A stretch of 42,728 bases of DNA, taken from assembly GCF_015207035.1 (NCBI RefSeq), contig NZ_JADEXQ010000054.1:1-42728 (forward strand), read 5' to 3'. This DNA comes from Romeriopsis navalis LEGE 11480. GTDB lineage: Bacteria; Cyanobacteriota; Cyanobacteriia; Leptolyngbyales; Leptolyngbyaceae. The notes beneath the pieces are model-generated. The model made no database searches. It saw only the letters and a program-made list of their open reading frames with translations, and was not told the origin of the DNA. This document shows positions 399 to 16,539 of this stretch, piece by piece (within the stretch, counting starts at the first letter, position 1; every line of letters starts with the position of its first letter). The translations under genes and the position numbers were made by a program.

Positions 399-2963
399 TT
401 ACGCGAGACCTTTGACCAACTGACGAATCTTGCCTTGTTGACGCGGCATAATTTGGTCAGGGAATTCTAGCTCGAGGGCAACGCGATTGCCGAATTCATC
501 CGCGATGTGATGGACATCATCCACCTGCACCAACAATCGCTTGGGCTGTGGATCGTCAGCTTCTTGGCTAATTAAAATGCCCACGAGTGGCTGGACATCA
601 CGCAGCATATCAACATCCGGAATCTTATTCGCCGGTACTTCAATCCGCAAACTGCGGTTCCCGATTTCCGTAATGCGACCGCCATAGAAACTGCCCTTCC
701 AGTAAACCTGAGCATGGGCCTTAATCTGTTTGCGGATGCGGACATTGTTGGATGCGGGCGTCCGTTCCTGGAAAGAGCGTACAACGCTGCTCGCGAGGAA
801 CTTAAACGATTGCATGGGATCGTCCATCGCCTCTCGACGCTGGGAGTACCACTCCTCCACATCGGAATAAATCACGAGATTCAGGGCGTCGAACTGCGCT
901 TGCGTCGGACTAACGAAGTCCAAAGACAGCAATAACTCTGTTTCATTCATGGGGGTGGCTCGGATCACCTGGGCTTTCAAGAAGGCTCGGGCGCCAAAGT
1001 CACCAATGAGCTCTAGATCAACTTCATCGAGTAAGTCAGCCCAGGAATCAATCACCACCTGACACCCGGTTTCACTCACGTTAATCGTGCGACCCTTGAT
1101 CGTTTTCTCTTCGCTATAAAGCAAGACATCAAGTTTTCGATCTAAGCGGTGTGACCGGCGAAGCTGTGGTTGCTCAAAGGCCACCATCAAGGCTGAAATA
1201 ATCAACAGTAGGTTAAAGATGCTCCAGAAGACGTTAACCAAAACGGCCTCGGTTGATTCCGGTCGTAGAATCAACCAGAATGGCACGGCCATAATCGATG
1301 CCGCCACGAGCGCCCCGGCGAATACCAAACCCTTGGAAGAAGTCCAGTCAAAGCTGCGCTTTGTGACTTGTTGGCCTTTGTCCGTCACATTAAACGAACC
1401 GAGTTTCGGGTTGACCAAGGCTAAGAACGTCACAATCCCGGCTTGGAAGGACATCGCAAATTCGTAAATCTCGTTCCAGAACGAGAAACGCACATGCTTG
1501 TAAGTGATGTAGTTGGCGTAGGTTGAGATAAAAAAGTGCGGCAAGGCATAGGCTAAGGTTTCTAAACCTAAACCCCGAATCGGGTTAATCCCGAAGACCA
1601 AAAATAGCGCAGGGGCGATCGCATACATCAAACGCGGAAAGCCAAAGAAGAAGTGCGATGTTGCACTGAAGTAGCAAATCCGTTGGGGTACCGATAGCCT
1701 TAGGCGGGGGTTAAACAGCGGGTTTTCTAGCCGCAAAATCTGGGCCATGCCCCGCGCCCAACGCACCTGTTGGCCGACATAGGCCGAGAATTTCTCCGGC
1801 GCCAGTCCCGCGACCATGATTTTGTCGTAGTAGACGGACTCATAGCCCTTCGAATGCAGGCGCAAAGAGGTGTGACAGTCCTCGGTCACAGTCTCAACCG
1901 CAATTCCCCCAATTTCTAGCAAGTGTGACTTCCGTACGATTGCCGCCGAACCGCAAAAGAAAGCGGCATTCCAGAAATCGTTACCCTTCTGAATCACCTT
2001 GTAGAACAGTTCGTTGCCAACCGGGACTTCGCCATCGGTTTGCAAATTTCGTTCAAACGGGTCGGGGTTATAAAACCAGTGTGGGGTTTGCACCAGAGAA
2101 ACCACTGGCTTTGAGAAGAAGCCCACCGTCTCTTGCAGCATATTGCGGGACGGAATATGGTCACAGTCCAGAATCAAGACCAACTCACCGGGAGTTTTGC
2201 GCAGTGCCGTGTTGATGTTGCCGGCCTTGGCATGATCATTGTTGTCCCGAGTTAAATGCTCACAACCCAGCTCTTGACACATTTGAATGAGTTCGGCCCG
2301 CCGAGCTTTGAACTTCTCGGCCCGGCCATCATCGAGTACATAAACCCGTTTCTTTTCCGCTGGATAGTCGATCGCGAGGGCGCCGAGTACCGTTTTACGG
2401 ACGATTTCCACATCCTCACTGTAAGTCGGAATATAGATATCGACGGAATACAGTTCATCGGTGGGAATGCCACTGATATCGATTGGCTTACGATCCTTGA
2501 GCTTGAGGGTCTGAAAAAACGACAGCCCCAAGGTCATAATCGCGTACAGCTCGGCCACGTACAGCACAATACTAAATGTGGCATCGACCCAGCCTGAAGT
2601 CAGATTCAGGGTGTAGTTGGTGCGGTAGAACAGATATCGAAAGGTGGTGACCAAACTCAACCAGACTAAAAACAGATGGAGATATTCGGTATTTTTATTG
2701 CTGCTCTGTTTGCGCTCAACGGTCGTGACCAACCAGGCAAAGGCTGTGAGTGATACCCCAATAATCCCTTGTTCCACCGGCGTCACCGGCGTCACGATAA
2801 ATGGAATCGAGAGCAAAATCACGATAAACATCAGCAGAAATAGCTGCCATTTACCCGCTTTGGCGAGAACTTTATCGAAAATATTGGGGATTAGATCAAC
2901 CAACCAAGCGGCAAAAGTGCCGCTTTTGCCGCGATTCGGCAGTTCTGATTTATTAGGGGTCAT
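399..2963 (-). CDS. bcsA: Cellulose synthase catalytic subunit BcsA (GT2 plus PilZ)
   Basis: 854 aa inner-membrane glycosyltransferase that polymerises UDP-glucose into beta-1,4-glucan and threads the chain through its own membrane pore. Visible motifs in order: N-terminal membrane helices (about 40-150), DDG (211-213), DCD (266-268), TED (360-362), QQVRW (398-402), the gating-loop motif FNVTDKG (524-530), further membrane helices, and a PilZ domain from about 602 with RRSHR and NVSETG, the c-di-GMP ligands. Synthesis should therefore be switched on by c-di-GMP. A further C-terminal stretch (about 740-850) looks like a second, degenerate PilZ fold. A GGAGG ribosome site lies 8-9 bases before the ATG, and the start directly abuts the bcsB stop. 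It is the last gene of the operon. Confidence 0.95.
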   Translation of the reverse strand: MTPNKSELPNRGKSGTFAAWLVDLIPNIFDKVLAKAGKWQLFLLMFIVILLSIPFIVTPVTPVEQGIIGVSLTAFAWLVTTVERKQSSNKNTEYLHLFLVWLSLVTTFRYLFYRTNYTLNLTSGWVDATFSIVLYVAELYAIMTLGLSFFQTLKLKDRKPIDISGIPTDELYSVDIYIPTYSEDVEIVRKTVLGALAIDYPAEKKRVYVLDDGRAEKFKARRAELIQMCQELGCEHLTRDNNDHAKAGNINTALRKTPGELVLILDCDHIPSRNMLQETVGFFSKPVVSLVQTPHWFYNPDPFERNLQTDGEVPVGNELFYKVIQKGNDFWNAAFFCGSAAIVRKSHLLEIGGIAVETVTEDCHTSLRLHSKGYESVYYDKIMVAGLAPEKFSAYVGQQVRWARGMAQILRLENPLFNPRLRLSVPQRICYFSATSHFFFGFPRLMYAIAPALFLVFGINPIRGLGLETLAYALPHFFISTYANYITYKHVRFSFWNEIYEFAMSFQAGIVTFLALVNPKLGSFNVTDKGQQVTKRSFDWTSSKGLVFAGALVAASIMAVPFWLILRPESTEAVLVNVFWSIFNLLLIISALMVAFEQPQLRRSHRLDRKLDVLLYSEEKTIKGRTINVSETGCQVVIDSWADLLDEVDLELIGDFGARAFLKAQVIRATPMNETELLLSLDFVSPTQAQFDALNLVIYSDVEEWYSQRREAMDDPMQSFKFLASSVVRSFQERTPASNNVRIRKQIKAHAQVYWKGSFYGGRITEIGNRSLRIEVPANKIPDVDMLRDVQPLVGILISQEADDPQPKRLLVQVDDVHHIADEFGNRVALELEFPDQIMPRQQGKIRQLVKGLA

Positions 2964-5378
2964 TTATTTGCCCTCCGAAACACGCTTGAGATAGCGTTGC
3001 GCAATGCCATACATCAACAGTGCGACACCGACGACACCGATCGAGATTAAGTAATAGCGCTGCTCGAGGAACCGCCGCACTTTATTCAACGGATTGAGTT
3101 TCTCCAGGGTACGTGGGGTGGCTTCCTGCAAGAACTGGAACTGATACCCATTCGGGTCGTAGGGACTGGGATTAGCACTGGTGGGTGTCATCAAGGCGGT
3201 ATCACCTTGCAACTGATAAAACCAAGGATCAGCGCTCAGTACGTCCTGAACTTGCTTGAGACCTTTATCGGTTTGCGCGGTTAAGGCGAGGATGACGCGC
3301 TCTTTGCCCCAAGGGGAGTTGACCATCTTAATCACGCCATCCGCATTCGGCAGTGAACGGGTCTGTGTTTTCTTAAACTGCCGGTTGAAGTTATCCAACA
3401 GACCGAGGCCCTGCTTGAATACCTCATCGGGTAATGGCAGACGATTGCTCGTACCAATGGCGACGATATGTTTGTCGCTTTTCACCGTCTCATCCAGCTC
3501 ACTATCGCCTAGGTAAACTTGATGCTCAATTGATTCAGCGCGGGTCAGGCGGCCCATGCGTTCGCTGAACTTGATCAAGGTCATAATGTCCGCGGGATTG
3601 GGCGATTCGGGCAGGACGATCGCCATCCGGGATAAACTTTGCCACTCTGCGAAGGGATAGCCGGTGGTGAGTAACTTCAGGTTGGGTAAGTCAGCCCCAA
3701 TTTCCCGCTTGACCGAGAAGCTCGTATCGCCGAGCACTGTGCCCCAAAGCTGCTGATCGGTTAACCGACCGCAGGCGCGCACACTATCCTCACCTTGGGG
3801 GATGAGCTTGAAATTGACCCGAATTGTGGAATTGGGCTTAATCAAGTTGGCAGGCAGGTCAACGTTGAAGGATTCGTTGGAGCCACCTTGATCGGAATCC
3901 AACTTCTTACTGCCGACATTGACGCCATCGATCGCTACCGAAACGGTGGATTTTGTAGGGTCAGTCTGGGCACTGTAGCTGTACTTCAAGTTCATTGTGC
4001 TACCGCGCAAGAACCGATCGTCGGGCATTGCCCAGAAATTAATTTCAACCGGCGGGGCATCAGAGCCGCGCACCGTCACATCGCTGTAGGTTTTGCCATC
4101 GGCGCGCTGCATTTGGCTCAGCTTGAAGTTGGCCTCCGGTGGTAAGAATCGTGGCCAAGCCCTTTGCGCTGCTGGGGTTGGCGCATTGAGTTCACCCTTG
4201 ACCTGAATCAGTGCGCTGGTGCCGAGCTTGGTGCTTTGGTCTTGGACTAAGAATTGTGCGGCTTTTTGAACTGCTTCAGGGGAGTTGCCGGAGATGACTA
4301 AGACGGGCACTTTGCCGTCTTCAATATTGGTGAGCATCAACAACCCTTCATCGGCCGGAATGCTCACGGCGTCGTTGCCGATAAACTCATTACCCTTAAC
4401 CTTGAGCGGTAGTTTGAGGGTTTTGAGTAATGGTTGTTGTGCGGGAGTGCCAACGATGACTAAACGATCGTTCCAGCTGAGATTCTTTGGTGCCTTGATT
4501 AACTGTGTTTCCAGATTACGGAAATCGGCGAGGCGACCGAGCTGTGATTGGAACCGGCTGGTTGCAGTGAGCCAGGCTTTGTCGGTTTGTGTGGGTTGTA
4601 AATAATTAATCCGAGTGGTGTCGAGGGTCAGCTCATCGAAGAAGGGATAGGGAAAGCGTCCAAAGTCGAGGGGGACAATTTTCGATTGATAGTCAAATAC
4701 CAATTTCGAATCGGGTAGCACCTCAGTCCAGAGTTTTTCATCGCCCGGTTCGGAGCAAGTGGCGGAATTTTCCTGCTGGGCCACTAAGGTCAGTTCGTTA
4801 TAGTCCTGAATTAGATTGGCGGGAATGGTCACGATCGCTTCGCCGATTTGGGCCTCTTTAAGATTCAGCGGAATCGCCCCAATGCTGGTGTCGTTAACCC
4901 GTACGATTAAGTTTGAGCGGCTGGCCACGAGGTCGGGGGAATGTTGGAATCGGACGATTGCTTTGACGCCCTTAACTTGCCAATTCCGGGGGCGGGTAAA
5001 GCCGAGACGGGATTCGCCATAGACGCCGTTCATCCGGTAGCGGTTGCCGATTGCCGGACTCCGGTTAAATTCCAAAATATATTTATTGGTCGGGCCGAGG
5101 TCAGGCTTTTCCGCCCCCACGTCGGTGGTATCCGTCGCCTCATCCCGCGGTGGAATGCCCAAAGCTTCAGTTTCGGGTGCTTGGGCAAACAATTGGACGG
5201 GTTGTGCCACAGTCTTAGTGGGCTGGGGCATTTGGGCCACACTCGTGCCTGATAGCACGACTGTTAAACTGGTCAGTACACCCATGCCACAGAGTATCAG
5301 CAATCGCATTGAACGCCATGACCAACCGTTGCGATTGCCCGTGGTGACTTGTTTTACAGGAAAAAACCGGTTTTTCAT
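2964..5378 (-). CDS. bcsB: Cellulose synthase regulatory/periplasmic subunit BcsB
   Basis: 804 aa, the usual BcsB length. An N-terminal hydrophobic segment (about 25-49, ending SVAQ) serves as signal, a large periplasmic part follows, and one C-terminal membrane helix (about 777-796) precedes a short basic tail. In the family this tail anchor docks on BcsA and completes the active synthase, while the carbohydrate-binding and flavodoxin-like domains guide the emerging glucan through the periplasm. The segment YRMNGVYGESRLGFTRP near residue 110 is the typical start of the first carbohydrate-binding domain. The stop codon abuts the bcsA start and the gene starts 18 bp after the GH8 stop, so cotranscription is expected. 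Confidence 0.92.
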   Translation of the reverse strand: MKNRFFPVKQVTTGNRNGWSWRSMRLLILCGMGVLTSLTVVLSGTSVAQMPQPTKTVAQPVQLFAQAPETEALGIPPRDEATDTTDVGAEKPDLGPTNKYILEFNRSPAIGNRYRMNGVYGESRLGFTRPRNWQVKGVKAIVRFQHSPDLVASRSNLIVRVNDTSIGAIPLNLKEAQIGEAIVTIPANLIQDYNELTLVAQQENSATCSEPGDEKLWTEVLPDSKLVFDYQSKIVPLDFGRFPYPFFDELTLDTTRINYLQPTQTDKAWLTATSRFQSQLGRLADFRNLETQLIKAPKNLSWNDRLVIVGTPAQQPLLKTLKLPLKVKGNEFIGNDAVSIPADEGLLMLTNIEDGKVPVLVISGNSPEAVQKAAQFLVQDQSTKLGTSALIQVKGELNAPTPAAQRAWPRFLPPEANFKLSQMQRADGKTYSDVTVRGSDAPPVEINFWAMPDDRFLRGSTMNLKYSYSAQTDPTKSTVSVAIDGVNVGSKKLDSDQGGSNESFNVDLPANLIKPNSTIRVNFKLIPQGEDSVRACGRLTDQQLWGTVLGDTSFSVKREIGADLPNLKLLTTGYPFAEWQSLSRMAIVLPESPNPADIMTLIKFSERMGRLTRAESIEHQVYLGDSELDETVKSDKHIVAIGTSNRLPLPDEVFKQGLGLLDNFNRQFKKTQTRSLPNADGVIKMVNSPWGKERVILALTAQTDKGLKQVQDVLSADPWFYQLQGDTALMTPTSANPSPYDPNGYQFQFLQEATPRTLEKLNPLNKVRRFLEQRYYLISIGVVGVALLMYGIAQRYLKRVSEGK

Positions 5379-5396: not shown

Positions 5397-6746
5397 TTAC
5401 TTAGCAGCATTATGCCCAAGTCGGGCCGACAAATTAAATTGTCCGTTAATCGCTTGTGCAACGGTGCGGGGGGGCAATAACCCAAACCACACGAGATTCT
5501 GGGTGTAGTAGGCGTTATTGTCATCCCAAAAACCGTCTTTGTAGCGAGTTTTGAGCTTTTTCTCGTAGATTTCCTGCGCGATATCCGGTGCCGCATACCG
5601 AAATGCTAAATACAGCATGCCGTACTGAGACGTCGCATCGTAGTCCACTAAGGCATTGCCCTGAAGATCGATTAAAGCCGGAATCTGTCCATCTTTTTGC
5701 CACAGCGTCCGCATCTGTGACAACTGGCGTTCTAGGTATACTTTGGCACGGGGTTCATTGTATATCTCCGCGTCCCAAGTAACACGCCACCAAACGCGGC
5801 TGGCGTCAAACCCATACTGACTTAAGACTGGTGCCACAATTGGCACGTAGCGTCCAGTTTTGACGTCGAGCCCCACCCAATCGCTGGGTAATCCGACTTC
5901 CGATAGATCGGCGGAACCTTCGAGTAACTGATAACTACTCGAAATTAGTGCCGTCCAATCGTTTTTGGGATCCACTTGTGCGAATAAACGGAAGGCATAA
6001 GGCGCCAAATAGGATGGATTGAAGGTGACCACATCATCGCGTTTGAAGGCGATTGCGGGTCCCGGCAGTAGATAACGTGTGCCCTGAATTCTGATTGTGG
6101 AGTGTTGCCACAAATCTTGGAGCTTCTTACGCGCCAGTTCCAAGTATTCGGGACGATTCCACCGTTTTGCCGCCAATATTAATGCATAGCAGGCATCAAT
6201 ATCCGCATCACTGGCAAAGTTTGCATCGATTGCCCCCCAATCCCCATCGGATTTACGGCCCCATTTCCAAATCCAGAGCCGATCGATGAGTTTTTTGTCG
6301 GTGCCGGGTTGCTTGCGTGCCAAGTTGGCTTCGGTCCAGTCCAACACCCGCTCAAAACTCGTCACATCATCCGCAAATACGGCACGTAAGAGCGCATAGG
6401 CTTGACCTTCCGAGGTCGTTCGCTGATCACTTTCCCAATCAATCACCCGGCCATCCTGTTGGATAAACCGATCGCGGTAGGCCTTCCAACTCGCGTTCAT
6501 CACCGTTTGGTGTTCTGTGTTGATCGGGCTCGTAGATTGCGGGACCGGGGCGGTGATCGTTGGCGTTGGGGCCGGCGGCGGACTCACTCCCTGGCAAGCC
6601 CAGAGACTAAAGCTCAAAGGCCCGACCAGTAAAAGCTGTCGGAAAACCGCTGGACCTTGGACTTGGCCGAGTAGACGAGACCGTGTGGCCATACCCCATT
6701 GATGTGGTGATCGGTTGATCAGACTCAATCGTGCGATAAGACTCAT
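5397..6746 (-). CDS. bcsZ: Glycoside hydrolase family 8 endoglucanase (BcsZ-like)
   Basis: 449 aa. GH8 is an inverting beta-1,4-glucanase family; BcsZ in other bacteria trims or unlinks nascent cellulose in the periplasm. The proposed acid is E113 in TSEGQAYAL, the conserved Asp motif is DADID (180-184), and D314 in YGFDASRVWW is the likely base. The N-terminus carries a hydrophobic stretch ending FSLWAC (Cys51), followed by a Pro/Thr-rich linker, so the mature enzyme may be a lipoprotein; Trp at -2 is unusual for a lipobox. The ATG at 6746 is weakly supported by its upstream sequence, and Met19 is an alternative. It sits between the TPR gene (24-bp gap) and bcsB (18-bp gap). Confidence 0.88.
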   Translation of the reverse strand: MSLIARLSLINRSPHQWGMATRSRLLGQVQGPAVFRQLLLVGPLSFSLWACQGVSPPPAPTPTITAPVPQSTSPINTEHQTVMNASWKAYRDRFIQQDGRVIDWESDQRTTSEGQAYALLRAVFADDVTSFERVLDWTEANLARKQPGTDKKLIDRLWIWKWGRKSDGDWGAIDANFASDADIDACYALILAAKRWNRPEYLELARKKLQDLWQHSTIRIQGTRYLLPGPAIAFKRDDVVTFNPSYLAPYAFRLFAQVDPKNDWTALISSSYQLLEGSADLSEVGLPSDWVGLDVKTGRYVPIVAPVLSQYGFDASRVWWRVTWDAEIYNEPRAKVYLERQLSQMRTLWQKDGQIPALIDLQGNALVDYDATSQYGMLYLAFRYAAPDIAQEIYEKKLKTRYKDGFWDDNNAYYTQNLVWFGLLPPRTVAQAINGQFNLSARLGHNAAK

Positions 6747-6770: not shown

Positions 6771-9089
6771 TTAGAAGCGCTCCCAAGATGGATTGAATCC
6801 ACGCCGCTGCAAGAAGCTTTCCTGCAGTTGCCGAATTCGCTGCTGATTCTCGGGTCCACCACCTTGCTGTGATTGGATAAAGTTAAACCGATCCAAGGCT
6901 TCGATCGCATTTCCTTGGGCGGCGGCTAATTCGGCCAAAGACCGTTGCGCCGTTGTGTTATCTGGCTGAAAGGCCAACACGTAGGAATATAGCTGTGATG
7001 CGGCGGCAAAGTCACGTTGCTGGAACCGGATGCCGCCGAGGGCGGACACTGCTTCCAGGTTGTTGGCTTGCCAGCTCAAGATCGCTTGATAGGCATCCCC
7101 AGCTTGTTTTAGGTTGCCCAAAGCCGCCGCTAATCGACCACGCAAAAATAACGTCTGTAGGGTGCTATTGGGGTTAGCCGTGACCATGCGTTGGGCCTGC
7201 ACCAGTAATCGGTTGGCCATGGCTTGGGCTTCTAGAGGATTGCGCTGTGACAGCACTTGAATTAAGCGCACCTGCACATCAAGATTGCTGGGGTCAGCCT
7301 GAAGTAAAGCCCGATATAGTGGCTCCCGTTGCGGGCTAGGCGGCAATAAGGTCGCCAGTGTGTAGAATTCCTGTGGGGTTTCACCCGGATTGAACTGGAG
7401 AAACTGCACCAATACCGCATCGGCGGCGGCGGCGGAAATCAATTTGGCTTGATAGGCGATCGCGGTGCGACCCAAACGCAGTTGCCAGTCACCCGGATTG
7501 CGTTGCAGCAATTGATCATAAAGTGCCAGCGCTTCGACGGCCCGGTTTTGGACCACGCGGATGCCGGCTAAGCCGCGTAAGGCGGAGTAAGCGACATCCG
7601 GATCGAGATTGGGTACGGCGAGCAGACGCAGATAACGCTGGGCCGAGGCCTCATAGTTTCCCTGGCGGCGATCAATGTCCGCCAGCAAAATATCAGGCGC
7701 CAAGTCTTTCGTGCCCTGTGGGGAGGCTTTGTATGTCGCGATCGCCGCTTGAGCGGCGGCCAAATTGCCCTGCTCAATCAGTAATTGGGCCATCCGGAAG
7801 TGTAAGAATGGCTCATTCACCCCGGCTTGCAGCAATGCCTGATAAACCGGCAATAGTGCGACATTCGGTTCGAGGGGAATGAGGGCCTGTGCCACCGCCT
7901 GCTGTTGTGCCGGATCGGCGGGGAACGGTTGTAAGAGGGCTTGTACTTGTTGGATCACTTGGGCTTGGGGCAGACTGCCCAAGCGGCTTTCCAAGGCTAA
8001 TCGCCGAATTGCGAGGATGCGATCGTTGGGATTTTGCTGGACAAGTTGGCGATAAAGATTCAAGGCAACTTGTTGCTGTCCGGGAATGCCGCCTAAGACA
8101 TCGGCCACTTCCCGGACTAAGGTAGTATCTGTGGTGCCGGTGGCTTGCAATTCGGCGAGATAGAGCTGGGCCGCTTCACCGCGCAGTGCCGTTTGACTGG
8201 TCTGCTTGCCAATTTCGTTCAGGGCACGGGCCAAGGGGAGGCGGGCATCGGCGCGATCACGCAGCGGATCTAAAACGCCGAGGGCTAAGGCCGACTGATT
8301 ATTGGCCAAATATGATTGAGCCAATTCCCCCCGGACTTGCAACGCAAAATCGTCGAGCTGGCTGGGCAAGACTGCTTCTAAAACGCCGATCGACTTGCTG
8401 GGATTACCGGTTTCGCGCAGGGCCCGGGCGTAAGCAATGGCCGCATTTTTGCCAATGGGATCACGGCTCTCGGCTTGATAACGTTCGAATAGCGTTAAAC
8501 CTTGAGTCGGATTGCCACTGTAAGTGTAGGCTTGAGCGGCTCCGAGCAACACATCGGCAGTCGGATTCGGAGACTGGAGGACGATTTGGTAATCGCTTAA
8601 GGATTCGGTAAAACGGCTCTGATAGCTATAGAGCAAGGCTCGCTGGGCGCGGGCTTCCAGATCATCTGGGGTGATGTCTAGCAATGTGGTGAGGGCGGCA
8701 ATGCCTTGCGGCTGCCATTCGGGTCGGAACCCACCGAGTTTGCCCACAGCTTGGAGCGCTAAGCGATTGCGGCTGTCTTGCTCCAAGACTCGTTGATAGG
8801 CATTCCAGGCATCCTCATCCCGGCCGGCCCGAGCATAGCCGATCGCCAGGCCGAGCTTGGCTTCGAGGGAATTCGGCGATTGGTTTAAGACGCTTTTGAA
8901 GGTAGCGATCGCTTGATCGACTAAACCTTGACTGAGTTGGGTATAGCCCCGGCGAACGTTGCTATTTGCGGATTGAGCTTGGGCCGGCTGGGCAAACGCG
9001 GTTGCGATCAACGGCGTGCCAGCACTCAGGAGAAATAAACAGGCGGCGCCAAATTGGCTCCCCACCTGTTGCAAACGATATTGTGTCAA
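6771..9089 (-). CDS. TPR-repeat protein, periplasmic scaffold part of a split BcsC
   Basis: 772 aa. A signal peptide (cleavage near AQA-QS, residue 39) is followed almost to the end by tetratricopeptide repeats; motifs such as ALGNLKQAGDAYQAIL and ALYDQLLQRNPGDW recur. In proteobacterial BcsC such repeats span the periplasm and are fused to a C-terminal outer-membrane barrel. Here the protein stops after the repeats without any barrel, and the barrel is supplied by the gene just upstream in the operon. The start codon is TTG at 9087-9089, supported by AGGAG seven bases upstream. The role in cellulose export is inferred from position and architecture; repeat content alone would not assign it. 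Confidence 0.8.
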   Translation of the reverse strand: MTQYRLQQVGSQFGAACLFLLSAGTPLIATAFAQPAQAQSANSNVRRGYTQLSQGLVDQAIATFKSVLNQSPNSLEAKLGLAIGYARAGRDEDAWNAYQRVLEQDSRNRLALQAVGKLGGFRPEWQPQGIAALTTLLDITPDDLEARAQRALLYSYQSRFTESLSDYQIVLQSPNPTADVLLGAAQAYTYSGNPTQGLTLFERYQAESRDPIGKNAAIAYARALRETGNPSKSIGVLEAVLPSQLDDFALQVRGELAQSYLANNQSALALGVLDPLRDRADARLPLARALNEIGKQTSQTALRGEAAQLYLAELQATGTTDTTLVREVADVLGGIPGQQQVALNLYRQLVQQNPNDRILAIRRLALESRLGSLPQAQVIQQVQALLQPFPADPAQQQAVAQALIPLEPNVALLPVYQALLQAGVNEPFLHFRMAQLLIEQGNLAAAQAAIATYKASPQGTKDLAPDILLADIDRRQGNYEASAQRYLRLLAVPNLDPDVAYSALRGLAGIRVVQNRAVEALALYDQLLQRNPGDWQLRLGRTAIAYQAKLISAAAADAVLVQFLQFNPGETPQEFYTLATLLPPSPQREPLYRALLQADPSNLDVQVRLIQVLSQRNPLEAQAMANRLLVQAQRMVTANPNSTLQTLFLRGRLAAALGNLKQAGDAYQAILSWQANNLEAVSALGGIRFQQRDFAAASQLYSYVLAFQPDNTTAQRSLAELAAAQGNAIEALDRFNFIQSQQGGGPENQQRIRQLQESFLQRRGFNPSWERF

Positions 9090-9103
9090 GTCTAATCTCC
9101 TCC

Positions 9104-11656
9104 CTACTGCAACAGTCGGCCTTTCGGCGTGATATCAAATTCAGTTTTCACCCGCACCCCGGCCACAATTTCTGAAAAATCATTACGCTGTTGCAACGAC
9201 AGACCAAAGCGCAGATTCGGCAGAAAGCGGAAGTCGTAAAATAGTTCCAGCGCATCGGCCTTGGCGCGTCCGGATTGACGCCGCAAGGTTTCGTTGGTGA
9301 GCGCACTACCGTAGGCTAGCCCCAAGCGATCGTCGGTGGAGAAAACATCCAAGAAGCTAATCCCAGCGCCGTAGGTGTCGCCACTCTCACCGGCGTCCAG
9401 GTTGTTGTAGCGGCCATAGCGGGCAAACACACCCATCTTCAACTTGGGAATAAAGAATTCACCGTTGATGCCAAACGCCGATTCGCGATCGTCTTCGAGT
9501 AACCCGAACTGACCGTTGCCGCGATCAACCAAGAAGGCTTCGCGGAATGAATCCCGGTTGCCACTGTCGCGCCCGGTCACGTAAGTACCACGGATAATCG
9601 CATTCCCATAGCGCAGTCCGAGTTCGCCGGCGAAGGCATTCAGCGAAAAATCACTTAATCCACGGGAGGATGAGAATGCCGCCGCTTTTGCTTCGAGGTT
9701 ATCGGACAAGCTCCAGTTGGCTAACAAACCGGGGCGTGAACCCAGCCCGGCCACAGCTAAAGCGGCATTAGTTTGGAACGTCGGGTTGAAGAAATGGGTG
9801 GCACCATCTTTGGCGAAACTATTGCGATCGAAATACGAAGTCAAATCGAGTTGGCCAACGGCAAATCGCAGATTCGGGATTTCGGGCAACGAAGTCGCAA
9901 AGTAGAGTTCGTTGATGTTGAATCCATCGTTGGGAGTATCGGTAAAGCCGCTGCCTGTGGAGACGTCAACTGTCGCACCGAATAGGGCATTAGGACTCAG
10001 GGGATAAATCCCGCTAATCCGGGCCCGGGCCGAATTTTCATCAGCTTGGTACTGATAAACCCCTTGGAGCGTCAAGGATGGCTCCGTTGTCGCAGTGCTG
10101 CGAATTAGCGGTGATTTAGGGCGTGTGCCTTTCAGCGCTGTGGCTTCAGTGCTAGGCGTTGCAATGCCAGCGCCATTGACGGGAACCGCGAGCGGCGCGT
10201 TTAAGGGATTGGCGACGGCGGGTTGCTGATAGCCGCCACGGGGATAGGCACCCAACTGCGGAATGATTTGCGGCTGTAGCGGTTGTGCCGCTGGTTGCGG
10301 TACGGGCACAAACTGCTGCGGTTGCGGCTGTGGTTGCGCGTAGTACTGCTGCTGCGGCACGGGCACAAACTGCTGCGGTTGCGGCACGTAGTATGTTTGT
10401 GGCGGCGGTGCGTAGTACTGCGGCCGCTGCACGTAGTACTGCGGTGGCATGTACTGGTATTGCGGCACTTGGGCGTAGGGTACGGCGACAGCGTAGGGTT
10501 GGGGTGCATACTGTTGCGCTGTCGGCTGTGGCTGATAGTATGACGTGCCCTGGGGGAGGACTGAAGGGGCCGGGGCTTGGGTCGTGGCCGCATAACGCGG
10601 GTTGGGTGGAACCAACTGTTGAGCAACGACTGATGGTGTGTTGTTGCTCGTTCGTAAACGTGCGACCGGCGGTGTTAAGCGCGGCATTGCATTACCGTAA
10701 GGGTTTTGCAATGAGGCATAGAGCGATGGCAATGCCGGCATTGGGGGCAATGTATTGCGCTGCTGCACATTGCCGTAATTTGATGCGGGACGTGCGTAGT
10801 TGTAGGCCGGTGTCGGTGTCGCTGTGCCATAACCGGGGTTTGCGGCGATTGCGGGATAACCAGCGGCCGGATAACCGGCAATTTGATAGGGGCTGGGAAC
10901 CGGATATGCGCCCTGTGGGATGTAAACCGGGTTTGTTGGCTGGCTCGCTTGTTGCGTTCCGGCGAGATTGGACTGCATCCAAGGTTGAGCGGGAATCGCC
11001 TGTGCGTAGGGTTGTTGTGGCGCTGCGTAGTAGCTGGGCGCCGCCGGCCGCATTGGCGCAACGCGATAGTTTGACTGTGGCGCTTGAAATACCCGTTCCG
11101 TGACGGACTTTGCCTCAGGTTGCGGCTTGACGGCAACGGTGCGACGAGGCGGTAATGGTGTTTGTGGCGCTTGCGCAATAATGCGTTTGGCGTTTACGGC
11201 TGGCTGCTGCTTTGTCGCTGGGGTTGATTTTGCTTCTAGGGGCTGTTTGATCAACGCGACCACCGATGGCGGCGGCGTTGTCAAGTTGGATACGGGGCGA
11301 CGGACTGCTGATTTAGCGATCGGCTTTAAGGCTAAGGCGCTGGCTTGGCGATATTTTGGCAACGATTGCGTGGTTGCTCGGCCAATGAGACTTGTGCGCT
11401 TTACGGCCCGACCCGCCATTTGCTGGATCAAAGCATCTTCACTGCCGACGTTGGAAAGTGTGGAATCGTTTGCTTGTGGCGCGTGATTGGCATCAGCTTG
11501 ATTCGGCCGCAGGGCGGTTTGATTGCTCTGGGCGGCGGCGGGAGCGATGTGTCCGAGGCTGAGCAGCACCAGGGCAATGGGTCCTGCTTTTGTCGCTGAC
11601 GTGGCTGAGAGCAGCAGCTTCAGCGTGAAATGTAGTGATTGGGACGTGGTTATCAT
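9104..11656 (-). CDS. Outer-membrane beta-barrel protein with long Pro/Gln/Tyr-rich N-terminal region
   Basis: 850 aa, first gene of the cellulose operon. Residues 1-43 are a signal peptide ending APAAAQ. Residues about 50-520 are disordered and rich in Pro, Gln, Ala and Tyr, with motif copies such as QQFVPVPQ. From about 525 to the end (326 aa) alternating hydrophobic strands resemble the OprB-like carbohydrate porins of cyanobacteria; GQLDLTSYFDRNSFA followed by THFFNP is the clearest part. There is no SLH domain, which most large cyanobacterial porins carry for anchoring to peptidoglycan. I infer it is the outer-membrane exit for cellulose, replacing the BcsC barrel. A general sugar porin is the alternative. 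It starts 14 bp upstream of the TPR gene. Confidence 0.65.
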   Translation of the reverse strand: MITTSQSLHFTLKLLLSATSATKAGPIALVLLSLGHIAPAAAQSNQTALRPNQADANHAPQANDSTLSNVGSEDALIQQMAGRAVKRTSLIGRATTQSLPKYRQASALALKPIAKSAVRRPVSNLTTPPPSVVALIKQPLEAKSTPATKQQPAVNAKRIIAQAPQTPLPPRRTVAVKPQPEAKSVTERVFQAPQSNYRVAPMRPAAPSYYAAPQQPYAQAIPAQPWMQSNLAGTQQASQPTNPVYIPQGAYPVPSPYQIAGYPAAGYPAIAANPGYGTATPTPAYNYARPASNYGNVQQRNTLPPMPALPSLYASLQNPYGNAMPRLTPPVARLRTSNNTPSVVAQQLVPPNPRYAATTQAPAPSVLPQGTSYYQPQPTAQQYAPQPYAVAVPYAQVPQYQYMPPQYYVQRPQYYAPPPQTYYVPQPQQFVPVPQQQYYAQPQPQPQQFVPVPQPAAQPLQPQIIPQLGAYPRGGYQQPAVANPLNAPLAVPVNGAGIATPSTEATALKGTRPKSPLIRSTATTEPSLTLQGVYQYQADENSARARISGIYPLSPNALFGATVDVSTGSGFTDTPNDGFNINELYFATSLPEIPNLRFAVGQLDLTSYFDRNSFAKDGATHFFNPTFQTNAALAVAGLGSRPGLLANWSLSDNLEAKAAAFSSSRGLSDFSLNAFAGELGLRYGNAIIRGTYVTGRDSGNRDSFREAFLVDRGNGQFGLLEDDRESAFGINGEFFIPKLKMGVFARYGRYNNLDAGESGDTYGAGISFLDVFSTDDRLGLAYGSALTNETLRRQSGRAKADALELFYDFRFLPNLRFGLSLQQRNDFSEIVAGVRVKTEFDITPKGRLLQ
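10302..10385. repeat. 27-bp direct repeat within the Pro/Gln/Tyr-rich coding region
   Basis: A 27-bp segment starting ACGGGCACAAACTGCTGCGG occurs at 10302-10328 and again, identically, at 10359-10385, a period of 57 bp (19 codons). It encodes the repeated peptide around QQFVPVP. Shorter copies of GTAGTACTGCGG follow at about 10414 and 10434. The reading frame is preserved, so the repeat can expand or contract in units of whole codons. Confidence 0.8.
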
Positions 11657-12042: not shown

Positions 12043-12738
12043 ATGCGTCCTATTGTTCTTTTGACTGTTAGCTTAATTGCTGGCACAGCGACTGCCTGTG
12101 TTCAGACCCGTTCACTGCGTCCAGAGATGACCATTCAGGTGAAGCCGACTGGGTCAAGTAGTTATGTGGCTCAAGGCCGCACTAATTTGCCCGGTCAGAC
12201 TGATATCTTGGTTCAGGCGGTGCGCCAGCTGCAGCCGCTGCATAAGTCGTTGGATGCCACTGGTAAGCCGCAACCGGTCTATGCGATCGTCGCCCGCGCG
12301 CAGGTGAAAACCAGTGAAGATGGTAAGTGGAAAACGACGTTGAAGGTGTTGCAGCCCCAAGGGCAAGGTGCGCCGCTAGAGAGTTGGCAGCAAAATTTTC
12401 TGACGAAGCAACTCCCGATGCAAGCTGATCCAAATTTGCGCTTTATTGCGACAACTTCACCGCTGCCGGGTAATTTGCAGTTTGAGGGGGATGTGGCCGA
12501 GGGTGGCAATCCCACCCGTCCTAATCCCGCATTACAAGTGAATGTCGATGGGAGTCGTTACTTGAGAGCGACTCAAGTCATTGCCGCCCAAGCGCCGGAA
12601 ATGCCAAATAAGCCGACGGTTGAGCAGGTGCGTCGGGTCGTCTCAGTGACCGTTAAACCGATTCCCGAATCGGCGGATGGGGGAACACCCGCAGCGAAAT
12701 CGGATGCGCCGCTATCGCCGCAGGCATTTGTCCGGTAG
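12043..12738 (+). CDS. Predicted lipoprotein of unknown function
   Basis: 231 aa, family not recognised. The first 19 residues form a hydrophobic signal ending ATAC, an acceptable lipobox with Cys19 as lipidated residue. The rest is soluble, without membrane segments, and rich in Gln, Pro and Thr. The middle contains KWKTTLKVLQPQGQG and QFEGDVAEGGNPTRPNP. It is divergent from the cellulose operon and is followed by a strong terminator, so it is probably monocistronic. Location next to the barrel gene makes an accessory role in the envelope possible, but nothing in the protein itself shows this. Confidence 0.7.
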   Translation: MRPIVLLTVSLIAGTATACVQTRSLRPEMTIQVKPTGSSSYVAQGRTNLPGQTDILVQAVRQLQPLHKSLDATGKPQPVYAIVARAQVKTSEDGKWKTTLKVLQPQGQGAPLESWQQNFLTKQLPMQADPNLRFIATTSPLPGNLQFEGDVAEGGNPTRPNPALQVNVDGSRYLRATQVIAAQAPEMPNKPTVEQVRRVVSVTVKPIPESADGGTPAAKSDAPLSPQAFVR

Positions 12739-12851: not shown

Positions 12852-13907
12852 TTATGAAGCAACGCGGCGAATTTGCTGTCTGGAGACGGGTTCGCTATGG
12901 CCCACTTCAGTGGTCACCTGAAATGCCTGTTGGACCAGCCCGCTTTGGTTCGACGGTACTTCTTCCACAACTTGAATGGTCGCGGGCGCTGCCGTTTCAG
13001 GTAAATTCGCCTGTAGCGATTCAATTTGCGTCACGATCGCCTGCAATTGATCTTGCAAGGATTGAATCCGATCGATGGTCACAGTATCTTGACGCGCCGC
13101 TTTGCTCGTGGCTTCACTACTGCGGGCAAAGCCGTAGATTTTCTGGGCTGCGACTAATGGTGCCGCAGTTGGCTGGTGCGATGGTTGGATGATCGCTGGG
13201 GCCTTCACGACTGGGCGGTCGATCGGCTGGGCGATCAGCACTGGCTGAATACTGGGAGGCTTTCTGGCAATGGGTGCGGTAATCGGCATCGCAACCTTGG
13301 GTTCGGTGGTCGATACCGGTGCTGGATCGACGCCATCGAGCCAAGCGAGCTGAGCCGCCATATCCAAATCTTCTAGCGCCGGTTGCTGTAATTTTGCAGT
13401 TGGCGCGAGTTCAACTGTGGGCGTTGCAATGGTGGGTTCAGCGGCAGGCGGCTCAGCGACAGCGGCGATCGGCATACTTTGAGCGATCGGCAGCGACTGT
13501 GGTTCAAAGGGTGCGAATCCATCACCATCTTCGAGAAAAAAGCTGAGGCCAGTTTTCTCTAAATAATTTTCGGAGGTGAGAGCGGCTTTGAGGTGTGATT
13601 CACGCTCTGCCCGACGCTGTTCTTGGTCATTCACGCGGTCATTCAACGCGGCGGCTTGCTTCGCCGACTTGCGCCAACCGGCGACGGCGACGCCAGAAAT
13701 TCCTAATCCGACGCTGGTAATACCGGCAAGCATTAGATAAGGCATTGCGGCATCGCGGACAGGGCCATTATAAATTTGTTTGTTACCTTGACTAAGCTGT
13801 ACCGGTGTATCGGCGAGCATTACGACAGGGGCTGATAGTGCGGTGAAGACTGCTCCAGTTGTGAGCAGGGCCGGCACAATCATTTGTTTAAGGGATAAAT
13901 CAGACAT
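12852..13907 (-). CDS. Two-helix membrane protein of unknown function
   Basis: 351 aa, family not recognised. Two hydrophobic segments (about 9-32 and 57-77) form a hairpin with a short loop between them. A charged, probably coiled-coil stretch follows (about 80-105), then a long Pro/Ala/Thr-rich region, and a second heptad-like stretch with IQSLQDQLQAIVTQIESLQANL (about 277-300). This looks like an inner-membrane protein with a long flexible arm. It is transcribed toward the lipoprotein gene and stands alone. Adjacent position is the only hint of a link to cellulose. Confidence 0.7.
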   Translation of the reverse strand: MSDLSLKQMIVPALLTTGAVFTALSAPVVMLADTPVQLSQGNKQIYNGPVRDAAMPYLMLAGITSVGLGISGVAVAGWRKSAKQAAALNDRVNDQEQRRAERESHLKAALTSENYLEKTGLSFFLEDGDGFAPFEPQSLPIAQSMPIAAVAEPPAAEPTIATPTVELAPTAKLQQPALEDLDMAAQLAWLDGVDPAPVSTTEPKVAMPITAPIARKPPSIQPVLIAQPIDRPVVKAPAIIQPSHQPTAAPLVAAQKIYGFARSSEATSKAARQDTVTIDRIQSLQDQLQAIVTQIESLQANLPETAAPATIQVVEEVPSNQSGLVQQAFQVTTEVGHSEPVSRQQIRRVAS

Positions 13908-14658
13908 AAGTCAAGAACTCTGAGTATCAGTCGAGAATATTGCTAGAGACAGTCCTATACGTTCAGAATCATACGGATGCGAAGAAATAAATTGTCAAGG
14001 CGAACAATTAACAAAGCATGTACCGCAGTCAACAGATTCCAAAACCAGCGATCAACTTTTAGCGATGCCATCCACAGCTTCGAGCTACATGAGCTCTTAC
14101 ATAACAGATTAATCGCTATCTTGGAAGTGCAGGGTGTGAATCCGATGAAGAAGCAAGAGTCGATAAAGAAGTTTATGTAAACCCTCTGCAGATTTGCGGA
14201 TTTTAAGTCGAATTTCGGCGGATTTGCGACAGTTCATGCTGGATGAACGTCAGGTTTTTAGCGTCGAGCAAGCGTGGGTTTTGACCTTGGGCTCACGATG
14301 CCATAACCGGCCTGAAAACACGCACTTGTACGGTCGGTAAATCGCAGTTTATTGGCTTACAGTGGGGGGGATTGAGCTGAAGTAATCGGCGGAATGCGTG
14401 GTTTGTCTGGCTGCACCGATCGCCGGCTAGTCGTTCTGTGTGTTGGTGTTGGTGCAACTAATTTCGCTCGTATGGTGGATGGGAACTCGTCCTGACAACT
14501 GCTAGTCTTGGCGATTAGATTGGGTGATTCGGACTGGATAATAATTGGCCAAACCATCTGGATTGTACGGAAAGCTATCGTGTTTGATTGAATACATAAT
14601 TGTTCCGTATAGATTGTCAACTGCTATTGTTTCTGCCGCTCAGCGGTGATTGCCAGTC
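13908..14658. other. Long intergenic region without a convincing gene
   Basis: 751 bp between the divergent membrane-protein gene and the GH5 gene. Small open frames at 13977-14180 (plus) and 14357-14620 (minus) show no recognisable composition or motif. A short hairpin GTTCAT/ATGAAC occurs near 14234-14250, and GATTTGCG is repeated nearby. The promoters of both flanking genes must lie here, but I cannot place them. Confidence 0.5.
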
Positions 14659-16539
14659 ATGTCAAATTTCGTCAAAACTTGGTTGCGACGCGGTTATCGC
14701 GCGATTGGCCAGTCCGTTAGTCGAGGTCAATCGATCGGGGCAAAACCGGTTGCGCTCCGGCCCCAACGTCGCTCTCGGCGGATGCCTTGGGATGGCATTA
14801 TGATTCTAATGAGCTGTGTGATTTTAATCCTGCGGCTCATGGGCCAGTTTTCGGATGAGGGGACGATCGCGGTGGCTGATTCGACAAGCCCGCCACCACC
14901 AGTGGTAGAGCTGCCGCTTTCTACCCGCGGTGCGACGATTATTGATCGCGAGGGTAAGCCGGTACAGCTCCGGGGGGTGAATTGGTTTGGCCTAGAAACG
15001 GCCAATCATGCGCCCCATGGTTTGTGGGCGCGGGACTATAAGGCCATGTTGGGCCAGATCCATGAATTGGGTTACAACACGATTCGGTTACCTTATTCGA
15101 TCGAAGGACTGCGCGATGGGAAGGTCGTCGGAATTGACTTTCGCATTGGTGATAACCAGGAGCTCTTTAATAAAAGTCCGATCGAAGTGATGGATGCGAT
15201 CATCACGGAAGCGGGCAAGCAAGGACTGATGATTCTGCTCGATAGTCACCAGTTAAGTACCAAGCGCATTCCGCCACTGTGGTATGGCGATGGGTTTACG
15301 GAATGGGATTGGATTCGCACTTGGGCGATGCTGGCTGAGCGGTATAAAAATCAGCCGAATGTCATTGGGGCGGACTTAAAGAATGAACCCCACGGCGTGG
15401 CAACTTGGGGCACGAACGATCGGCGAACGGATTGGCGATTAGCTGCAGAGCGTGCGGGTAATGCAATTTTGAATATCAATCCGAATTGGTTGATCGTGGT
15501 CGAGGGCGTGGAAGAAAATGTGCCGGGCCAGAAATTGCCGAAGCATTGGATGGGTGGGAATTTGGAAGGTGTCAAACGGTTTCCAGTGCGGCTCAAGCAA
15601 CCGCGGCAGTTAGTCTATTCGCCCCATGAATATGGTCCGGGGGTGTTTCCGCACAAGTGGTTTGATGCACCGGAGTTCCCGGAAAACCTGCTCGCCCGAT
15701 GGCAAACGGGTTTCTTTTATATTGTGCAGGAGCAGATTGCGCCGATCTATATTGGCGAGTTTGGTGGTAAGCAAGTTGACCAAACCTCGAAAGAGGGGAT
15801 TTGGCAAAATCAATTGGTGGATTTTATCAAGCAGCATCAGCTGAGCTATACCTACTGGAGTTGGAACCCGAATAGTGGTGATACCGGTGGTTTGCTCAGT
15901 GATGATTGGATGACGGTGATTCCAGAAAAGCAGATGATGCTGAAGCGAATTTTGCCCCAGTTAATGATTGCTGCGCAGTCCGGCAAGATTGATGCACAAC
16001 CAGTTAACCAATGGTTGCGACCACGCTTTCATTCATCCAAAAAAACGGCTGCCAAAGCGCCGCGCCCCCAGCAATCGGCTCAGCAGCCCGCCAAAGCGCC
16101 AGTGAATTCGCAGTCAGTCAGCTCGAAGCCAGCGACAAAACCCCAGCAAACGGGACCGGCGATCGACGCATTATCTCCGTCGGCGTCAAAGTCTCCCGCC
16201 CCAGTCAAGTCTCCAGTGGCAACGGTGTCAGATTTGGTGGTCAAGACTAGTTTGCAGTCGGATTGGGATACGGGATTTTGTACCGCGATTCAAGTGGTGA
16301 ATCCAACGGATCAAGTCATCGCGAACTGGAAATTACGCTTTGATATGCCCGGTGCGTCGATCGACCAAAGCTGGAATGGTCAGCATCGCCAGGGTAAAAA
16401 TGGTCAGCATGAAATTCAGCCGCCCGATTGGGGCAAATCGGTTCAGGCAAAACAGGCGATCGATATGGGTTTCTGCGCCAAGAAAACTGGCAAGCGTCCA
16501 TTGCCTCGCAACTTTCAAGTGATTGCGCGGAAGGGATAG
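14659..16539 (+). CDS. Membrane-anchored GH5 endoglucanase with C-terminal CBM2
   Basis: 626 aa from ATG at 14659; an in-frame TTG lies nine bases earlier. A basic N-terminal tail (about 40 aa) precedes one hydrophobic helix (about 45-62) with no clear cleavage site, so a signal anchor is likely. The GH5 domain (about 85-440) has VQLRGVNWFG, acid/base E243 in DLKNEPHG and nucleophile E367 in YIGEFGGK. A Pro/Ala/Ser/Lys linker of about 85 aa leads to a family 2 cellulose-binding module with the Cys pair of GFC and GFC, WKLRF, and WNGQH. The enzyme should cut beta-1,4-glucan outside the inner membrane and hold on to cellulose. It is a second cellulase beside the GH8 gene. An own promoter is required. 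Confidence 0.88.
   Translation: MSNFVKTWLRRGYRAIGQSVSRGQSIGAKPVALRPQRRSRRMPWDGIMILMSCVILILRLMGQFSDEGTIAVADSTSPPPPVVELPLSTRGATIIDREGKPVQLRGVNWFGLETANHAPHGLWARDYKAMLGQIHELGYNTIRLPYSIEGLRDGKVVGIDFRIGDNQELFNKSPIEVMDAIITEAGKQGLMILLDSHQLSTKRIPPLWYGDGFTEWDWIRTWAMLAERYKNQPNVIGADLKNEPHGVATWGTNDRRTDWRLAAERAGNAILNINPNWLIVVEGVEENVPGQKLPKHWMGGNLEGVKRFPVRLKQPRQLVYSPHEYGPGVFPHKWFDAPEFPENLLARWQTGFFYIVQEQIAPIYIGEFGGKQVDQTSKEGIWQNQLVDFIKQHQLSYTYWSWNPNSGDTGGLLSDDWMTVIPEKQMMLKRILPQLMIAAQSGKIDAQPVNQWLRPRFHSSKKTAAKAPRPQQSAQQPAKAPVNSQSVSSKPATKPQQTGPAIDALSPSASKSPAPVKSPVATVSDLVVKTSLQSDWDTGFCTAIQVVNPTDQVIANWKLRFDMPGASIDQSWNGQHRQGKNGQHEIQPPDWGKSVQAKQAIDMGFCAKKTGKRPLPRNFQVIARKG

Follow-up and report, generated by a model that had tools for sequence, protein, structure and literature searches.

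Within a stretch of 42,728 nucleotides (hereafter the window) of contig NZ_JADEXQ010000054.1 from the cyanobacterium Romeriopsis navalis LEGE 11480 (GCF_015207035.1), the minus strand carries a cellulose operon that begins with two separate genes, one for a porin-like outer-membrane barrel and the other for a tetratricopeptide repeat (TPR) protein. This gene pair is real and is kept in the Bcs operons of seven cyanobacterial families. The recruited OprB-family porin and the free TPR scaffold probably form the exit for cellulose, in which case the five gene products would make up one trans-envelope machine. In its layout the pair resembles AlgK and AlgE, and it would work like BcsC; by the tests made it is a member of neither family.

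The elements of the operon and their parts, in coordinates of the window, are:

9104..11656, minus strand: porin-like barrel protein of 850 aa, with a signal-like N-terminus (read by eye), a Pro/Gln-rich tail and a C-terminal barrel
10094..11656, minus strand: signal-like stretch and low-complexity tail of the barrel protein, residues 1-521, recognized by composition and by its length in relatives; probably on the periplasmic side
9107..10093, minus strand: 16-stranded barrel domain, OprB family, residues 522-850 (329 aa), from the predicted fold and the Pfam matches of relatives
9740..9844, minus strand: loop between predicted strands 5 and 6, LTSYFDRNSFAKDGATHFFNPTFQTN..., recognized by conservation; putative position of a porin constriction loop
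6771..9089, minus strand: TPR scaffold of 772 aa, TTG start, signal-like N-terminus, about 20 helical hairpins; predicted to be periplasmic
6774..6806, minus strand: C-terminal tail of the TPR protein, RRGFNPSWERF with Trp769, conserved in relatives
5397..6746, minus strand: GH8 endoglucanase, BcsZ-like (159 bits to GH8)
2964..5378, minus strand: BcsB with a C-terminal membrane helix read by eye (326 bits to PF03170)
399..2963, minus strand: BcsA cellulose synthase with a PilZ domain (703.7 bits)

The genes follow one another in the order barrel, TPR protein, GH8, BcsB and BcsA-PilZ, with intergenic distances of 14, 24, 18 and 0 bp. These coordinates bear out an earlier note on this DNA, which had described barrel and TPR protein as separate genes, 14 bp apart, at the head of an operon with GH8, bcsB and bcsA. 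BcsA narrowly exceeds the curated CelA cut-off of 699.1 bits; its translation shows DDG, DCD, TED and QQVRW, and its PilZ domain RxxxR and NxSxxG, which we take to be the motifs of these families. BcsB and GH8 fall below the NCBIfam BcsB and BcsZ cut-offs and lie far above those of Pfam. The combination that marks a Bcs system, namely BcsA with PilZ, BcsB and GH8 in one operon, is present in the window, where no RNA element was found with Rfam at gathering scores.

The association of the barrel with the TPR protein and BcsB was followed in a phylum sample of 386 genomes. At E<1e-100 for a strong barrel match and E<=1e-60 for the TPR protein, each was detected in 16 genomes, and full-length BcsB was detected in 17 at E<1e-80. 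All three are held by the same 16 genomes, from seven families, and the seventeenth genome with full-length BcsB (G343) belongs to another class and has no strong barrel or TPR match. Altogether the 16 genomes contain 19 strong barrels, 20 TPR proteins and 20 full-length BcsB proteins, and the copy numbers of barrel and BcsB are equal in 15 of them, the exception being G011 with one barrel and two BcsB. In a few of the barrel matches the matched stretch contains a stop codon. Weak barrel matches (E<=1e-3, all with E>1e-8) were obtained in another 16 genomes, 13 of which measure 1.6-1.7 Mb, and weak or partial BcsB matches in five more (G085, G177, G241, G286 and G332). The genome G392 (Myxacorys almedinensis) appears to be the same as G289, which carries the same family label as the window genome, judging from a barrel match with identical contig coordinates and score.

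The gene order is kept as well. In 39 related barrel loci, counted without the window and after removal of short or duplicate loci (L033, L035, L036, L037, L069 and L106), the TPR gene stands next on the same strand in 38, and the remaining locus ends at the contig end; the pairing is therefore more than chance. Furthermore, bcsB lies downstream within 2.3 kb in 31 of the 39 loci, so that the search of cyanobacterial genomes proposed in the earlier note did find the pair kept beside the synthase genes in most relatives. Among the other eight, L003, L012, L015, L057 and L066 end too early to show bcsB. At L009 (Calothrix parasitica) the pair is followed by an opposite-strand reading frame of 2084 aa and then by GH8, bcsB and bcsA; a separation of this pair from bcsAB was considered and rejected, as the three genes were found beyond the intervening frame. 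GH8 is absent from five operons that keep barrel, TPR protein, bcsB and bcsA (L054, L055, L062, L102 and L103), indicating that the barrel accompanies the synthase, not the hydrolase. The barrel and TPR genes overlap by 4 bases in 19 of 39 pairs, the window included, and 26 of 39 overlap or lie at most 20 bases apart; these gaps are approximate, with the first start codon taken as the start.

The four genes also appear to have been inherited together. In the trees of barrel, TPR protein, BcsB and BcsA, second copies pair alike in all four (L062 with L101, and L102 with L103). Over 34 operons, tree distances of the barrel correlate with those of the TPR protein (r 0.86), BcsB (0.85) and BcsA (0.80), and those of the TPR protein with BcsB (0.93), all of these being values that include shared species history and come from trees used without support values. 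The trees omit the short or duplicate loci named above, the cut loci L003, L012, L015, L018 and L021, and L056, L064, L065, L068 and L105, which have no barrel operon.

Membership of the barrel in the OprB family was established through its relatives rather than through the window member itself. Pfam OprB (PF04966) was matched by 10 of 19 family members, with a best E of 2e-12, and the window barrel alone gave no Pfam family at E<=1; the barrel domain and its 18 relatives align with a mean column identity of 75%. The AlphaFold2 model of the domain has 16 strands (mean pLDDT 76.7, pTM 0.74), and its top match among solved structures is OprB of Pseudomonas putida (Foldseek E 6e-12). Comparison with OprB 4gey gave a Z score of 27.0 over 299 residues with a root-mean-square deviation of 2.8, the next row standing at 22.6; OmpM1, an outer-membrane attachment porin, is also among the fold matches. 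Within the same genome, two OprB proteins scored 28.3 and 21.1 bits with the barrel profile and seven other barrel proteins at most 3.2 bits, and 6.5 bits was the highest score among 510 shuffled or reversed decoys (302 of them reported with a score). Against the sequences of solved structures the profile matched only ferritins, at E 0.21 and above, which were taken as chance. The earlier note's description of the barrel as OprB-like and free of an SLH domain thus holds: no SLH match was found in the window protein, and 7 of the 8 OprB proteins scanned in this genome have one. The sole SLH-free protein among the eight, L077, is also the closest to the window barrel.

What did not survive is the notion of a split BcsC. 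The barrel profile gives E. coli BcsC a score of -1.9 bits, under the best decoy, and neither PF05420 (BCSC_C) nor PF13372 (Alginate_exp) is among the matches of the 19 barrel members at E<=1. A BcsC simply cut in two was rejected for two reasons, the likeness of the barrel to OprB and a BcsC score that does not rise above those of the decoys. BcsC is also missing from the best 50 rows of either fold comparison, which proves nothing by itself.

Among the most conserved parts of the barrel is the loop between strands 5 and 6, with a mean conservation of 0.91 in 19 sequences. Nearly the same stretch again averages 0.91 in 35 barrels, where the domain as a whole averages 0.75. Only 3 of 315 segments of the same length in the domain, the loop included, reach this value. 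A rough estimate of the lumen, with faces assigned by hydropathy and without coordinates, gives 13 positive and 13 negative side chains. The 19 relatives from genome contigs are all labelled as cyanobacterial, and because the contig scan reaches close relatives only, barrels of the same kind may exist in other phyla.

The N-terminal tail of the barrel protein behaves very differently from its loop. In the window it is rich in Pro, Gln, Ala and Tyr, extends to about residue 521 and holds a short repeat array (10293-10388); in relatives uncut by a contig end it varies from about 180 to 900 residues, counted from the first start codon. The family tail contains 15.2% Pro and 8.3% Gln and is also rich in Ala and Ser. 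Tyr is frequent in the tails of the window protein and some relatives, and is no family trait, since it makes up 3.5% of the family tail against 3.7% of the barrel itself. Of the approximately 470 extra disordered residues claimed earlier, the long low-complexity tail is there, its disorder being judged from composition alone. Because length and sequence differ greatly, a sequence-specific role is unlikely, and our guess is that the tail serves as a tether or spacer.

The model of the TPR protein consists of about 20 helical hairpins (mean pLDDT 86.1, pTM 0.59). Its matches by sequence and fold, among those listed, are generic repeat proteins and uninformative on kinship with BcsC, and the TPR profile A2 gave no match on 45 barrel reading frames, a set that includes cut and duplicate ones. 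No lipobox was noticed by eye in 17 N-termini of TPR proteins. The C-terminus carries the motif R-G-[FYI]-x-P-x-W-E, of which Arg763, Gly764, Pro767 and Trp769 are present in 36 of 36 proteins and the Glu in 35 of 36. The cryo-EM study of E. coli BcsC, in the portion cited here, places TPR 1 in contact with BcsB and a putative cello-oligosaccharide stacked on Trp766, where the linker that joins solenoid and barrel begins (PMC11379886). Trp769 is predicted to stand at the end of the solenoid and would correspond to Trp766. The surroundings of the two residues are dissimilar in sequence, so that the likeness is one of analogy. In a separate operon of G011 (L052:9510-16907), which consists of TPR gene, bcsB and bcsA without barrel and GH8, the tail tryptophan is retained; this genome also has one complete operon.

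Taken together, these features suggest the following route for the polymer. BcsA would make the glucan and move it across the inner membrane, and BcsB would stand on the periplasmic face, as is established for these families. The signal-bearing TPR solenoid, with its approximately 20 hairpins, would span the periplasm, its N-terminal repeats docking on BcsB and its C-terminal tail, with Trp769, reaching the outer membrane and passing the chain to the barrel. The 16-stranded OprB-family porin would have been recruited as a dedicated exit for a single chain, the almost invariant loop that joins strands 5 and 6 shaping the glucan path, and the Pro/Gln-rich tail may lie in the periplasm, perhaps tethering the barrel to the scaffold or to the wall. 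GH8 would trim misplaced chains. With somewhat less assurance, and at slightly better than even odds, it can be proposed that a sugar-uptake OprB porin was turned into a cellulose exporter, that this exit arose independently of BcsC, that Trp769 takes the role of Trp766 and that the tail replaces the fused linker.

The window genome, rated 99.5% complete, was also searched for other exits. A full-length BcsC elsewhere in it had been named beforehand as an observation that would overturn the earlier interpretation, and none was found by a PF05420 search. The single match is a 479-aa protein on contig C22 without a TPR match, borderline at 23.6 bits in the genome search and 23.2 in hmmscan against a cut-off of 23.5. 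As a full-length BcsC it was rejected, being a barrel that stands beside DUF3131 proteins and a CesA-like synthase; its operon (L113:4789-13576, outside the window) comprises this barrel, three DUF3131 proteins, of which one weakly matches GH26, and the synthase. Barrels of the C22 type occur in 17 of the 386 genomes, and only 5 of these belong to the 16 genomes that have the BcsB operon, so that this barrel is no regular partner of BcsAB. In 10 of 16 other genomes with a barrel of this type a DUF3131 gene lies near it, within the short stretch examined. In Anabaena PCC 7120, alr3754 is described as a BcsC-domain barrel in the relevant part of one survey (PMC4365693), and alr3757 as a CesA with a PCR domain in that of a review (PMC12430437); because the two gene numbers are close, a cluster of the C22 type may explain the barrel proposed for heterocyst formation. 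A third synthase, on contig C50, has a PilZ domain slightly below the Pfam cut-off; a scan of six reading frames, one of them the synthase, out of the 16 listed at this place matched no HlyD or porin family.

Across the sample, BCSC_C is matched at E<=1e-3 in 9 of 386 genomes, above cut-off in three, and in 2 of the 16 genomes with the BcsB operon (G000 and G338). The genome of another class, G343, encodes a 1421-aa TPR protein (L105:7978-12243) with a very weak BCSC_C match in the genome search that hmmscan did not reproduce at E<=0.01, and has two adjacent BcsB genes elsewhere; this protein is possibly a fused exit outside the class of the window. In G085 (L064:9013-13291) a BcsB-like protein (66 bits) adjoins a GT2 synthase with no PilZ match and with MshEN, a domain that binds cyclic di-GMP. 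This locus perhaps represents another type of glucan synthase controlled by cyclic di-GMP.

Three further genes lie upstream of the operon:

12043..12738, plus strand: 231-aa protein, exported or lipoprotein-like (by eye), divergent from the operon, no Pfam match
12852..13907, minus strand: 351-aa protein of no clear family, weak Pfam matches only
14650..16539, plus strand: GH5 cellulase with CBM2, by Pfam

Relatives of the 231-aa protein occur near the barrel in 11 of the 19 loci of the first set, with further cases in the additional loci. Those of the 351-aa protein occur in 8 of 19 (downstream of bcsA at L014) and those of the GH5 enzyme in 3 of 19, both again with more in the additional loci. 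These counts are affected by the many loci that end at a contig edge before that distance.

Several observations weigh against a dedicated exit built from porin and scaffold. The family of the barrel is one known for sugar uptake; the likeness of Trp769 to Trp766 is one of position only and not of sequence; and the barrel-TPR pairs of L021 and L060 have no bcsB in the following 7.7 and 9.1 kb. Conversely, the second operon at L052 combines TPR gene, bcsB and bcsA without a barrel, and that at L104 has bcsB and bcsA behind a CheA-like gene with neither barrel nor TPR gene. Among 17 genomes picked for holding the barrel, copies of barrel and BcsB are equal in 14 and differ in three: G390 and G395 have one barrel per two BcsB, and G391 two barrels, one of them cut, and one BcsB. 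G392, the apparent duplicate of G289, is one of these 17. The genomes of L062, L102 and L103, three of the operons lacking GH8, carry another operon with GH8; L054 is grouped with L053 by the barrel tree and by none of the other three; and common species history has its share in the distance correlations. Finally, the borderline BCSC_C barrel of the second synthase operon could in principle serve as an exit too.

As a first alternative, the barrel might be an ordinary sugar porin that retrieves cello-oligosaccharides set free by the GH8 and GH5 enzymes, with cellulose leaving the cell by some other route. The assignment to OprB by Pfam (10 of 19), by fold and by profile (28.3 and 21.1 bits against 6.5 for the decoy) agrees with this explanation, as does the GH5-CBM2 enzyme kept nearby in several loci. 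We consider it unlikely, since the barrel stays with the TPR gene and bcsB-bcsA in the five operons without GH8 (three of whose genomes have it elsewhere), tracks full-length BcsB genome by genome, and has no SLH domain, unlike 7 of the 8 OprB proteins scanned from the same genome; moreover, the TPR protein would be left without a known outer-membrane partner. Alternatively, the barrel might be an accessory anchor or envelope tether, a role suggested by its long low-complexity tail, its TPR partner and the attachment porin OmpM1 among its fold matches, and the chain would then exit through TolC, a route proposed for the Xcs system in the portion of the review cited (PMC12430437), or through the borderline BCSC_C-like barrel on C22. 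To this a still lower probability is given, because no HlyD match was found among the proteins of the window operon, the C22-type barrel (17 of 386 genomes) is present in only 5 of the 16 BcsB-operon genomes, and the loop that joins strands 5 and 6 hardly changes among relatives whose tails measure anything from about 180 to 900 residues, as fits the function of a pore. That the product is another beta-glucan or a modified cellulose is the most improbable of the alternatives and would leave the exit mechanism unchanged. Enzymes of the BcsA family do differ in product, as is generally known, but the window BcsA is above the CelA cut-off, if narrowly (703.7 against 699.1 bits), and shares its operon with BcsB and GH8.

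The proposed exit of porin and TPR scaffold can be compared with four known systems. Like the window operon, the E. coli system combines a TPR solenoid and a 16-stranded barrel with bcsA, bcsB and bcsZ in one operon, with a tryptophan just past the solenoid, as far as the cited part of the structural study describes it (PMC11379886). However, BcsC is a single polypeptide with a BCSC_C barrel, whereas TPR protein and barrel in the window are encoded by two genes, and the OprB-family barrel has no detectable sequence likeness to that of BcsC. In the alginate system of Pseudomonas, the TPR protein AlgK and the outer-membrane porin AlgE are separate and work as a pair (PMC9734138). The window shares this layout, with TPR protein and porin encoded apart next to a synthase, but the same source gives AlgK as a lipoprotein with 9.5 repeats (PMC9734138), as opposed to about 20 repeats and no lipobox seen by eye here. 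Moreover, AlgE has a family of its own, whereas the window barrel is of the OprB family and stands beside a cellulose-type synthase with BcsB and GH8. With the OprB porins, the cyanobacterial SLH-OprB proteins included, the barrel shares family and fold, and it differs from them by the missing SLH match, the long Pro/Gln tail and its fixed place in a cellulose operon.

The XcsAB-TolC system of Thermosynechococcus vulcanus is likewise built on a cyanobacterial PilZ-type synthase that needs an outer-membrane exit. In contrast to the window operon, it is described in the cited part of a 2025 review as using an HlyD-like adaptor and a TolC-like channel, with genes scattered in T. vulcanus and Xcs-type operons said to be without bcsB (PMC12430437). 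The window has BcsB, and the family scan found no HlyD match in the proteins of its operon. From the same part of the review, the XcsAB-TolC model is without experimental validation and cellulose secretion in cyanobacteria is poorly defined (PMC12430437). A phylum-wide survey reports that all analyzed strains lack BcsC_C and have TPR domains alone, and that very few carry BcsB and GH8 (PMC4594306), and another survey of the same year finds BcsC-domain barrels in a few strains, including that of Anabaena alr3754 (PMC4365693). Losses of BcsC are recorded for alphaproteobacteria in an operon survey (PMC7112194). According to the earlier note the design seems little described. On the pair itself no paper was found among open-licence PMC papers, and for the split AlgK and AlgE are a known precedent. 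A 2015 review by Roemling and Galperin reportedly treats the types of cellulose operon and may mention cyanobacterial ones.

The locus thus supplies named candidate genes for the missing cellulose exit of cyanobacteria, which can be tested by deletion. If the proposed reading is true, a sugar porin would have been recruited in these organisms as the exporter of a polymer.

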